Assembly (NCBI GenBank): GCA_021772975.1
Contig: JAJFKY010000012.1
Span: 62,001 to 126,000, forward strand
DNA: 64,000 nt
Reading direction: 5' to 3'
Origin: Gammaproteobacteria bacterium
GTDB lineage: Bacteria > Pseudomonadota > Gammaproteobacteria > Xanthomonadales > Wenzhouxiangellaceae
The position numbers and the translations under genes were made by a program. This document shows, piece after piece, positions 55,055-58,224 of this stretch. The first letter of the stretch is position 1. Each line of letters opens with the position of its first letter. The notes below the pieces were generated by a model that was not told the origin of the DNA, did not search any database, and saw only the letters and a list, made by a program, of their open reading frames with translations.

Positions 55055-55822
55055 TCAGGATGCCTTGCGGGCCGGTTCCGCGGCATTCTGCAACCAGGCG
55101 TAACCTTCCTCTTCCAGTTTCAACGCCAGCGTTTTATCACCGGAAGCAACTATCTTTCCGTCCGCCAGCACGTGCACTACATCCGGCACGATATGGTCAA
55201 GCAAACGCTGATAGTGGGTAATCACAATCATTGATCGCTGCGGATCACGCAAGCGGTTGACGCCTTCGGAAACAATCCTCAGGGCGTCAATATCCAGTCC
55301 CGAGTCAGTTTCATCCAGCACCGCCAGCCTGGGTTGCAGGATCGCCATCTGCAGAATTTCATTGCGCTTTTTCTCGCCCCCGGAAAAACCATCGTTGACT
55401 GCCCGCTGCAACAGCTTGTCGTCCATGTCCAGAATCCTGGCCTGCTCACGCGCCAGACGCATAAACCCCATGGCATCCAGTTCATCTTCAGCCCGCGCCT
55501 TGCGCTGCGCATTCAGCGCCGCGCGCAGGAAATAAGCATTGTTGACACCGGGAATAGCAACCGGATACTGAAACGCCATAAACAAGCCCGCCACGGCTCG
55601 CTGGTCCGGGCTTAACGACAACAGGTCCTGACCCAGGAACTCAACGCTGCCAGCGGTCACCGCAAAACCATCCCGGCCCGCCAGCACGTTACCCAGGGTA
55701 GACTTGCCGGCGCCATTAGGGCCCATGATGGCATGTATCTGCCCGGAATCGATCTCCAGATCAAGGCCATTCAGAATTTTCTTGCCGTCAACTTCGGCGT
55801 GTAAATTTTTAATCTTTAACAT
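55055..55822 (-). CDS. sufC: Fe-S assembly ATPase SufC
   Basis: A 255-residue ABC-type ATPase that powers the SufBCD scaffold. It contains the Walker A GPNGAGKSTLGNVLAGRD, the Q-loop FMAFQYPVAIPGVNN, the family form of the signature NDGFSGGEKKRNEILQMAIL, Walker B with LAVLDETDSGLDIDALRIV and the H-loop MIVITHYQRLLDH. The ATG lies 6 nt beyond the outer inverted repeat of the GxxExxY cassette, so its ribosome-binding region is partly made of repeat sequence (GTGGATAAAAGTT). This probably lowered or changed translation relative to the ancestral operon. Confidence 0.95.
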   Translation of the reverse strand: MLKIKNLHAEVDGKKILNGLDLEIDSGQIHAIMGPNGAGKSTLGNVLAGRDGFAVTAGSVEFLGQDLLSLSPDQRAVAGLFMAFQYPVAIPGVNNAYFLRAALNAQRKARAEDELDAMGFMRLAREQARILDMDDKLLQRAVNDGFSGGEKKRNEILQMAILQPRLAVLDETDSGLDIDALRIVSEGVNRLRDPQRSMIVITHYQRLLDHIVPDVVHVLADGKIVASGDKTLALKLEEEGYAWLQNAAEPARKAS

Positions 55823-55828
55823 AACTTT

Positions 55829-55856
55829 TATCCACGGATTACACAGATTTTCACAG
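55829..55856. repeat. Outer inverted repeat of GxxExxY cassette (sufC side)
   Basis: 28 bases starting TATCCACGGATTACACAGAT. The reverse complement of 56265-56292 matches it at 26 of 28 positions, so the two form long inverted repeats on either side of the GxxExxY gene. Confidence 0.85.
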
Positions 55857-55868
55857 CTTGTTTGAATC

Positions 55869-56255
55869 TCAATTGGCTATTCTTTTAACCTGCAAGCTCT
55901 GCGCTGCAAAATTCAATATCAAACCTCTAATAAAATTAGTTGCTTTTAGGTAATTGATCAATTGTGCGTACTCATTTCCGCCAATCACTGATAGTGCTTT
56001 TATTTCAATGATGATATCGTTGCAGCAAATGAAGTCAGCACGATACCTATTTTTTAACTGGCAACCCTTGTAACTCACTGTCAGCTCAGCCCGCAAGACA
56101 AAAGGTATTTCTAAATTACTTAGCTCGATAGCCAACGCTTCCTGGTAGACAGCTTCCAGAAAACCAGCACCAAGCTCTGTGTGCACTGCCTGTGCAGCAC
56201 CAATGATGGCATAGGTCTGTGCATCATCATTCTTGCTACCCATATTGACTGGCAT
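55869..56255 (-). CDS. GxxExxY family protein inserted in the suf operon
   Basis: A 128-residue protein with the family motif in HTELGAGFLEAVYQEALAIE and a nuclease-like continuation (LRAELTVSYKGCQLKNRYRA, DFICCNDIIIEIKALSVIGG) resembling PD-(D/E)xK-type folds with D, E and K residues in the expected order (ADF...IEIKAL). Its function is unknown. The gene lies between sufB and sufC in the same orientation and is framed by 28-bp inverted repeats. The AGGTAAC ribosome-binding site partly derives from the repeat edge. Base use is more AT-rich than suf genes. I read it as a mobile or domesticated cassette rather than a suf component. Confidence 0.9.
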   Translation of the reverse strand: MPVNMGSKNDDAQTYAIIGAAQAVHTELGAGFLEAVYQEALAIELSNLEIPFVLRAELTVSYKGCQLKNRYRADFICCNDIIIEIKALSVIGGNEYAQLINYLKATNFIRGLILNFAAQSLQVKRIAN

Positions 56256-56264
56256 TATTGTTAC

Positions 56265-56292
56265 CTGTGAAAATCCGTGTAATCTGTGGATA
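56265..56292. repeat. Outer inverted repeat of GxxExxY cassette (sufB side)
   Basis: 28 bases starting CTGTGAAAATCCGTGTAATC, in inverted orientation to 55829-55856 with two mismatches. It ends 7 nt before the sufB stop codon. Confidence 0.85.
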
Positions 56293-56299
56293 CACTCTT

Positions 56300-57742
56300 T
56301 TATCCCACAGCACCTTCCAGACTCACTTCCAGTAACGCCCGGGCTTCCACCGCAAACTCCATCGGCAATTCCTGAAACACTTCCTTACAGAAACCATTGA
56401 CGATCATGGCCACCGCGGTTTCTTCATCCAGGCCCCGGCTCTGGCAATAGAACAACTGATCCTCACCGATGCGTGAAGTCGTCGCTTCATGTTCGATTTT
56501 GGCAGTGGGGTTTTTGCTTTCAATATAGGGAAAGGTGTGCGCGCCACACTGTTTACCGATCAACAGCGAATCACACTGGGTAAAGTTACGTGCCTTGTCA
56601 GCCGCCTTGCCTACCTGTACCAGACCCCGATAGCTGTTCTGACCATGCCCGGCCGAGATGCCTTTGGAAATAATGCGGCTTTTGGTGTTCTTCCCCAGGT
56701 GAATCATTTTGGTGCCGGTATCGGCCTGCTGATAGTTATGCGTCAGCGCAACTGAATAAAACTCGCCCGAAGAATCATCACCCCGCAAAATGCAGCTGGG
56801 GTATTTCCAGGTAATCGCTGAGCCGGTTTCCACCTGGGTCCAGGAAATTCGCGAGCGGTCACCCTGACAGTCACCACGCTTGGTCACAAAATTATAAATT
56901 CCGCCTTTACCATTCTCATCGCCCGGATACCAGTTCTGCACCGTCGAATATTTAATTTCGGCATCCTCCAGGGCGATTAACTCAACCACTGCCGCATGCA
57001 GTTGATTTTCATCACGCATTGGAGCGGTACAGCCCTCCAGATAACTGACATGGCTGGCTTTATCAGCAATAATCAGGGTGCGTTCAAACTGTCCGGTATT
57101 GATCGCATTAATACGGAAGTAAGTGGATAGTTCCATCGGACAACGCACGCCTGCCGGAATATACACAAACGAACCATCGGTAAACACCGCGGAATTCAAA
57201 GCCGCAAAAAAATTGTCACCGGTCGGCACTACGGTACCCAGGTATTTTTTCACCAGTTCAGGATGATCTTTGACCGCTTCGGAGAACGAGCAGAAAATCA
57301 CTCCTACGTCGCGCAGCTTTTCCTTGAACGTGGTGGTGACCGAGACCGAGTCAAAAACCGCGTCGACCGCGACCCCGGCTAGACGGGCGCGCTCGTGCAG
57401 CGGCACACCCAGCTTGTCGTAGGTTTCCAGCAGCTTGGGATCTACTTCATCCAGGCTCTGTGGTTTGTCCGCGTCTTTTTTAGGCGCTGAGTAATAAGAG
57501 ATCGATTGAAAATCGATCCCCGGCACATTCAATTTAGCCCAGTCTGGTGGTGTCATGGTCAACCAGTGCCGATAAGCCGCCAGCCGCCATTCGGTCAACC
57601 ATTCGGGCTCATCCTTCTTGGCGGAAATAAAGCGAATCACCCCTTCATCCAGACCCGGGGGGACGGTGTCGGCGTCGATGTCGGTGACAAAACCGTGTTT
57701 GTAACGGCCTTCGATCAATTGTTCGATTTGAGCATTACTCAT
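56300..57742 (-). CDS. sufB: Fe-S cluster scaffold subunit SufB
   Basis: A 480-residue SufB. It contains [100 protein letters not shown] and the [20 protein letters not shown] block. The later Cys/Glu/His residues used for cluster assembly are within the [20 protein letters not shown] region ([20 protein letters not shown]). The ATG at 57742 (MSNAQIEQL) follows GAGAG; the longer frame overlapping the regulator gene was rejected. It is the first catalytic gene after the regulator, 20 nt downstream, with sufC separated by the inserted GxxExxY cassette. Confidence 0.95.
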
Positions 57743-57762
57743 ACATTGACTCTCGCTGTGTT

Positions 57763-58224
57763 TCAGCCCGGCTGAAAATGCAGTTTGATGGGTTGCCATT
57801 TAGGTCCGGCATGCTTGGCCGGCAGCGGCTGCAACATATCCGCGATACTCAGATTATCCAGCAACCGGTGAATTTCCCGGTCGATCACATGCCAGTTGCC
57901 ACGTAACTGGCAGACCGGCTCGTGGCTGCAACTGCCCGGTTCCGCGCTGCACTCGGTCACACCGATCGGACCCTCGATCGCACAGATCACATCGGTAATA
58001 GTGATTTCCTGTGCAGCGCGCTGTAAACGGTAGCCGCCATGTGCGCCACGTACTGAGGAAAGCAGTTCTGCCTTACCGAGCAGTTTCAGCACCTTGCTGA
58101 CCGTGGGCAGTTCCAGATGGCACTCCTCGGCTAACTGGTGAGCTGACAACAAAGCCTCTGGCACCTCTGCCAGACGGGTAATCACCAGCATGGCGTAATC
58201 GGTCAGCTTATTGATTTTGAACAT
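57763..58224 (-). CDS. Rrf2-family SUF regulator (IscR/SufR-like)
   Basis: A 153-residue winged-helix regulator of the Rrf2 family. The N-terminal DNA-binding part is [20 protein letters not shown], followed by [20 protein letters not shown] and [20 protein letters not shown]. The three cluster-ligand cysteines are in [20 protein letters not shown], as in IscR-type sensors, so it probably binds an Fe-S cluster and represses the operon when clusters are sufficient. It is the first gene of the suf operon and likely controls itself. Confidence 0.93.

Follow-up and report, generated by a model that had tools for sequence, protein, structure and literature searches.

Our analysis suggests, with a probability that we put at roughly 0.48, that a small gene lodged between sufB and sufC belongs to a two-part repeat system of the REPIN-RAYT kind, in which a resident GxxExxY nuclease is accompanied by dispersing cognate repeats. 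The gene lies in the window, by which we mean the whole 64,000-nucleotide stretch of DNA that was analysed, and it is framed by a pair of inverted-repeat arms. Sequence comparison indicates that this unit of gene and arms recurs across phyla, that arms and protein are kept at old loci, and that gene-less pairs of arms built from the same words are dispersed. The whole looks like an undescribed selfish-DNA system.

The element between sufB and sufC

The locus contains the following features.

55055..55822, minus strand: sufC, the co-directional downstream neighbour, with matches in relatives' genomes
55825..55833, plus strand: left copy of CTTTTATCC, a 9-nt direct repeat straddling the arm end, read from the sequence
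55829..55856, minus strand: downstream inverted-repeat arm, ending 6 nt before the sufC start codon
55869..56255, minus strand: GxxExxY gene, 128 aa, PD-(D/E)XK nuclease family (PF13366 / TIGR04256) by profile matches
56265..56292, minus strand: upstream inverted-repeat arm, 5' of the GxxExxY start, TATCCACAGATTACACGGATTTTCACAG on the minus strand, 93% complementary to the other arm
56297..56305, plus strand: right copy of CTTTTATCC, overlapping the sufB end, read from the sequence
56300..57799, minus strand: sufB, the co-directional upstream neighbour, with homologues in relatives

As the initial annotation had described, the gene is framed by 28-nt arms that match at 26 of 28 positions and stop 6 nt from sufC and 7 nt from sufB, both of which are whole reading frames. 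The arms are 408 nt apart, and the element of 464 nt takes up most of a 480-nt gap (stop codon included) in the minus-strand suf operon. Its inverted-repeat score is 22, and when the two intergenic stretches were shuffled 20,000 times the score reached at most 12; chance or low complexity as the source of the arms was ruled out by this shuffle and by the cross-pair controls described below. The downstream arm terminates in GGATA, 6 nt ahead of the sufC ATG, and so includes a GGA spaced like a Shine-Dalgarno sequence, a putative ribosome-binding site of sufC. The direct repeat CTTTTATCC, which overlaps the arm, is ambiguous: it may have arisen by target-site duplication or be accidental.

The window protein is a member of the GxxExxY family, matching TIGR04256 (E 4e-37, 127.2 bits, cut-off 35) and PF13366 (E 6e-35, 120.5 bits, cut-off 22); its other Pfam match, to PF05367, is sub-threshold, and it has none to the Y1 (HUH) tyrosine transposase. 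In an alignment of 33 of the 48 sequences first considered, E33, D73, E83-x-K85 and Q97 are invariant and Y101 nearly so, which gives the PD-(D/E)XK pattern of an acidic residue, D, E-x-K and Q..Y on the fold. Q-x-x-x-Y is a mark of RecB-like enzymes. The AF2 model (mean pLDDT 91.5) has SSO0001 as its best fold match (Foldseek E 3e-4; Z 9.8), followed by matches of middling Z to the archaeal Hjc resolvase (6.8) and other nucleases, a Z below 8 alone being no proof of kinship. Solved structures searched by sequence with the family profile yielded two matches only, taken as chance (E 0.4 and 0.74). Intact PD-(D/E)XK residues on a predicted nuclease fold make nuclease action of GxxExxY plausible. 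We know of no phenotype for GxxExxY; the available portions of open-access papers naming it do not mention flanking repeats, and among the papers listed in our searches of the open-access literature none links GxxExxY or these repeat words with inverted repeats.

We searched for sufC in 61 genomes, all of which gave matches (paralogous ATPases included), with the region read in 57 and comparable in 55. GxxExxY lies in the sufB-sufC gap of the window's own genome (G000) and of G005, G012, G017 and G018, as well as of Solimonas marina, where sufB and sufC matches confirm the position; ten other genomes of the Solimonas marina genus have no GxxExxY there. The only other genome of the window's genus compared (G001) has an empty gap of 10 nt, stop codon included, and no PF13366 match anywhere in the genome. 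The proposal of the initial annotation that the gene had landed in the suf operon is borne out by this empty site; that landing need not be recent, since five other genomes also have GxxExxY between sufB and sufC. In our best tree the six suf-gap copies are scattered, and constraining them to one clade gives a likelihood 17 higher (AU p 0.69), which does not reject a common origin; the copies may thus stem from one old insertion with losses or from several insertions. By eye, further genomes have gene-less pairs in the suf gap, of the same or other short-word types. In the bacterial family, the suf gaps of L093, L098, L102, L113, L114, L116, L164, L166 and L170 contain short-word inverted repeats of other sequence, e.g. 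GGTTTCAGGGTTCAGG...CCTGAACCCTGAAACC, and no GxxExxY. Judged within this gap alone, the sufB-sufC interval looks like an insertion hot spot.

The window's own genome has a single PF13366 match, together with a second, similar arm pair elsewhere that spans ~305 nt without an intact gene. Both elements start with ATCC, and the left arm of the second pair has even the odd third word TTTTCACA in common with the suf arm. As a decayed GxxExxY this second element was rejected, the matches being weak only (best E 0.006); here, as in the remnant searches below, query proteins with stop codons carried X at the stops. A weak S23-like stretch with a stop, under the family cut-off, also occurs in this genome (L236, G000:C8:343190-343312).

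Arms and their words at GxxExxY loci

Sought around GxxExxY genes in other genomes, inverted arms turned up widely: they are present at 105 of 123 distinct loci (106 of 124 with one duplicate), compared with 4 of 191 neighbouring ORFs, and 18 of the 123 are without arms. Our first locus set consisted of the best 80 of 546 relatives, 74 of which have 150 nt on both sides (L029 has no usable flank); 81% of these 74 show matching arms, as opposed to 0% of 222 shuffled flanks. Cross-paired flanks in this set also match in 41% of 216 cases, because the arms have a common consensus like ATCC-RCAGATTN-CRCAGATTN. Among 52 further loci, which came from genomes with several copies and from the bacterial family of the window, 88% have arms, and only 4% of 203 cross-pairs match because the words differ there.

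Two of the 52 repeat earlier elements (L147 = L013, L131 = L044). Other repeats of first-set elements (L124-L128, L130, L135, L137, L142, L146) were omitted from the further set, as were fragments (L136, L153, L154, L210-L213; S23 fragments L235-L237), and L147, L151 and L158 were also left out of the Mantel and word-period set. The duplicate L131 was kept in the Mantel test, the period count and the 106/124 figure, and dropped from the identity-class comparison, the tree and the 105/123 figure; rows with stops were excluded from the tree and the Mantel test.

The left-arm word period, counted in 106 arms, is 9 in 44, 10 in 13, 8 in 1 and 12 in 1, with none clear in 47. A stricter count requiring longer stretches (105 arms) gives 9 in 16, 10 in 5, 8 in 1 and none in 83, while any period appeared in 3 of 2100 shuffles. 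The first letters of 60 elements of the first set, from the best 80 of 546, are ATCC in 34, GTCC in 10 and AACC in 4, Solimonas marina being among the last. General target-site duplication was not detected in 72 elements, in which the mean common word was 2.08 vs 2.26 in shuffled pairs and 182 of 200 shuffles were as high as observed.

Arm words differ between loci and, by sequence comparison, track the protein lineage rather than the host genome. Arm similarity rises with protein identity across 101 elements (Mantel r 0.62, 0 of 2000 permutations), a result that co-inheritance of gene and arms alone would give too. Arm similarity is 0.56 for elements of different genomes whose proteins are at least 50% identical (1902 pairs; 0.63 for 40 pairs within the bacterial family), compared with 0.25 for same-genome elements with proteins <50% identical (50 pairs) and 0.31 for same-genome elements at or above 50% (5 pairs, in one of which an arm was picked in reverse orientation). 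A common neighbour gene was detected in at least 36 of 2009 similar-protein pairs, a lower bound as the simple ORF caller missed some neighbours, and in our tree the clade holding the window protein spans many phyla. At the suf gap, arms of G005, G012, G017 and G018 are 84–94% identical at loci whose fourfold sites are 29–37% identical; the window's own arms reach only 0.56–0.67 identity with the other suf arms. Over all 35 pairs with a common neighbour the contrast is weaker (arms 0.74, fourfold sites 0.34, outer flanks 0.66).

A median of 11 nt separates the end of the upstream ORF from the start of the left arm (n=99), and this ORF runs in the same direction as the gene at 79 of 89 loci (++ 45, +- 34, -- 7, -+ 3; simple ORF caller). 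This position just behind stop codons, usually in the direction of the upstream gene, points to probable expression by read-through. The record of Sphingomonas parapaucimobilis (L331) has GxxExxY annotated in the interval from fabD to fabG, where a word repeat is present on the upstream side alone.

Copy numbers are low. Of 43 family genomes, 29 have PF13366 matches, at 1–5 each; over all genomes searched the range is 0–13, the maximum coming from one Jettenia genome (fragments included in both counts). Pairs of GxxExxY proteins from the same genome are <50% identical in 50 of 55 cases, and copies so few and mostly dissimilar imply that the gene rarely copies itself. Searching with the window protein alone (tblastn, E up to 1e-5), which misses distant members, we obtained 0 matches among 50,697 phage records and matches in 8 of 72,556 plasmid records, and a pattern-limited scan of viral contigs gave 1 locus; arms accompany 3 of these 9 mobile-vehicle loci. 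With nearly no relatives of the window protein turning up in these scans of phage, plasmid and viral records, a phage or plasmid was rejected as the vehicle. A 23S rRNA intervening sequence was likewise discarded, as neither the window nor the 40 scanned loci (of the 80 in the first set) match rRNA; no Rfam family reached threshold in the window.

A parallel case is provided by the S23/four-helix (PF05635) genes of the same family genomes (L215-L244), where 68% of 25 have arms and cross-pairs match in 11%. The word period in 18 such arms is 7 in 9, 8 in 2 and none in 7; a 7-nt word type flanks S23/four-helix genes and a 9–10 nt type flanks GxxExxY. Here too the arms follow the protein (18 elements, r 0.61, 0 of 2000 permutations).

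Gene-less inverted pairs

Allowing 1 mismatch, we found the word CGCAGATTNCGCAGATT in 19 of the 43 family genomes, up to 65 times in one genome, compared with at most 1 match for the reversed-pattern control. Word counts distinguish carriers from other genomes (one-sided Mann-Whitney p 0.003, 43 family genomes) in a test that is not independent because the carriers are related. Carrier status derives from 30 of 44 PF13366 family matches that were typed, the other 14 not having been fetched, so some 'non-carriers' may carry the type. Many words also occur without a typed CRCAGATT-type gene (36 in G011, 12 in G013, 11 in G076 and 10 in G032; 31 in G082), and the window's own genome, a carrier, has 0 matches to the CGCAGATT pattern and only the one further element found.

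In the genus of Solimonas marina, GxxExxY is present in that species only (1 of 11 genomes), and CRCAGATTNCRCAGATT words number 131 there vs 0–31 in the ten other genomes. We retrieved 20 Solimonas marina pairs, inspected eight with their flanks and searched four for empty sites. The 20 pairs mostly have sharp AACC...GGTT ends and loops of mostly unrelated sequence, with one nested case. Empty sites were found for 4 of the 4, the joined flanks of each aligning over the junction with one or more sister genomes; short gaps replace the element, and loose alignment at the exact joins keeps the limits of the inserted unit from being set to single-base precision. G082 seems to have a diverged pair of its own at one of these four loci, and one nested pair also has an empty site. 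In L290 (552-720), from Solimonas marina, a gene-less pair is nested in another of a different dialect. The outer flanks of L276-L295 place several pairs between AAAAGC and GCTTTT, as if the pairs sat in or beside terminator-like palindromes or had longer true ends.

An AACC start is seen in 18 of 20 Solimonas marina pairs and 14 of 14 pairs from G012 and G017, the same as in the arms of their suf-gap genes. It also occurs in G011 and G006 (6 of 6 pairs), where no gene of that type was among the matches fetched; the dialect match may therefore reflect family descent, which makes both the main reading and the wider class discussed below slightly less likely. G012 has gene-less pairs in two tandem rows, of about three and about four units placed ~320–370 nt apart (G012:C1:1099664-1100718 and 1442940-1444032). 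No remnant of the gene was found in 46 gene-less sequences searched, on which ground deletion copies of the gene were dismissed as the source of the pairs. A mir-1781 match in L288 (E 0.0008, below the gathering score) was taken as chance on a hairpin.

The initial annotation had the gene moving as a small unit, an idea it held open to refutation if the repeat occurred widely without the gene, and this half of its stated refutation is what the dispersed gene-less pairs amount to. With the repeat so widespread on its own, it seems to be chiefly the arms, and less so the gene, that spread. What survives of the proposal is that the unit of gene and arms recurs, mostly beside unrelated genes.

A candidate repeat system, its alternatives and its known counterparts

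In the system that we propose, rows of ~9-nt words (CRCAGATTN) in inverted order form the arms bracketing the gene. The GxxExxY protein would bind them, probably as a dimer that recognises either the inverted pair itself or the cruciform into which the pair can fold, and would nick or cut there, after which repair might spread or maintain gene-less pairs in trans. The gene copy itself would mostly be inherited vertically, as RAYT genes are with REPINs, and the unit would be expressed by read-through, here from sufB, and probably tolerated. GxxExxY is the likely agent acting on the arms, as we infer from the sequences, and another enzyme could move the gene-less pairs. Possible, and put forward tentatively, is a wider cross-phylum class in which a small non-transposase protein (the GxxExxY nuclease and, in parallel, S23) is lastingly paired with its own short-word inverted-repeat dialect and spreads these repeats in trans through intergenic gaps, with neither target-site duplication nor a known transposase.

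A different mover is assumed if arms and gene form a MITE-like inverted-repeat element mobilised by an unrelated host transposase (e.g. a Y1/RAYT enzyme or an IS), GxxExxY being cargo in some copies. Arm words in Solimonas marina indeed far exceed its single gene-bearing unit, sampled loops are unrelated to the gene, and some genomes (G011, G082) have many words without the gene; however, arm words track the GxxExxY lineage instead of the host genome, which is not readily expected of cargo, general target-site duplication is absent, and in the Solimonas marina genus the words abound where the gene is, which leaves the cargo explanation rather unlikely. Alternatively, the nuclease could home, cutting gene-less pairs and copying gene and arms into them by gene conversion. 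Its nuclease fold, the existence of gene-less pairs built from the same word, which could serve as targets, and a Foldseek match of the model to the homing enzyme I-Bth0305I (E 0.02, rank 18) are consistent with this, but the low counts and dissimilarity of copies within a genome, together with purifying selection at loci with saturated synonymous sites, make homing improbable.

The selection just mentioned (dN/dS of 0.05–0.16 in 9 of 10 pairs of suf-gap GxxExxY genes, the tenth without usable dS, rough values with several dS near 2) would suit a useful host nuclease for which the arms serve as operator or substrate, for instance in structure-specific repair or defence, the pairs being by-products. 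Arms kept in four suf-gap orthologues and a weak PADLOC match to RTasPDDEXK (E 0.005) agree with such a host function, which we nevertheless find doubtful given its patchy occurrence in 29 of 43 family genomes (fragments included) and in 1 of 11 of the Solimonas marina genus. The arms might instead act as RNA, forming a stem in the operon transcript that is cut by RNase III or controls the mRNA, like 23S rRNA intervening sequences, with mobility incidental. That arms within a locus match better than arms across loci, and lie mostly close behind a co-directional gene, fits a stem; however, mismatches in the sense strand are G.U in 64 cases vs A.C in 68 and so show no lean to RNA pairing, on which basis selection for an RNA stem was rejected, none of the scanned loci is in rRNA, the window lacks an Rfam family at threshold, and gene-less pairs of the same arms are dispersed. 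We consider an RNA role distinctly improbable.

Short-word intergenic repeats occur in many of the genomes examined, and we found no named agent for such repeats; a repeat dialect paired with one small nuclease family is a testable candidate for their maker or mover. If the REPIN-RAYT-like reading is true, a second kind of enzyme would have solved the REPIN-RAYT theme, a family whose name reflects nothing but its motif would acquire a function, and the presence of small inserted genes in operons like suf (or fab, in one annotated record) would be accounted for.

Among known elements, IS elements and MITEs share the terminal inverted repeats seen at GxxExxY loci and differ in the target-site duplication, which the 72 elements do not show. 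Unlike homing endonuclease elements, GxxExxY is intergenic and interrupts no intron or intein target, sufB and sufC being whole. 23S rRNA intervening sequences are bracketed by inverted ends. One from Coxiella, with an S23 ORF, is described as a selfish element of 428 nt (PMC4990558); it resembles the suf element in its small ORF and similar size (428 vs 464 nt), whereas its position in 23S rRNA is found at 0 of 40 scanned GxxExxY loci and its protein belongs to another family. The heptameric repeats with the word GGGAATC, described from Xanthomonas and Nostoc (Rehm 2015), are likewise tandem rows of short words; most lie between genes, not far behind an ORF, with 70 and 75 convergent inverted pairs in two Xanthomonas genomes and none found on plasmids of the strains studied; they are G-rich and were studied as G-quadruplex elements (PMC4692102). 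They are like GxxExxY arms in having short words and inverted pairs between genes, and unlike them in using 7-nt rather than 9–10 nt words.

The closest counterpart is the REPIN-RAYT system, whose repeats are short tagged palindromes. One account describes a resident gene of low copy number that neighbours its own family of repeats, the several genes of a genome being matched by different repeats, with inverted repeat pairs dispersed between genes and little species-level transfer, and proposes long co-evolution of gene and repeats (PMC3116915). Compared with that account, the GxxExxY system likewise has cognate repeats beside the gene (106 of 124 loci, arms following the protein), dispersed inverted pairs without the gene, and a gene that does not multiply in the genome, the 13 matches of Jettenia, fragments included, being the exception. 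It differs in that its arms are long rows of 9–10 nt words, with the gene itself inside the inverted pair, and in that GxxExxY is a PD-(D/E)XK family member and not an HUH/Y1 enzyme; having an enzyme of another class, it is like the REPIN-RAYT system and not a member of it.
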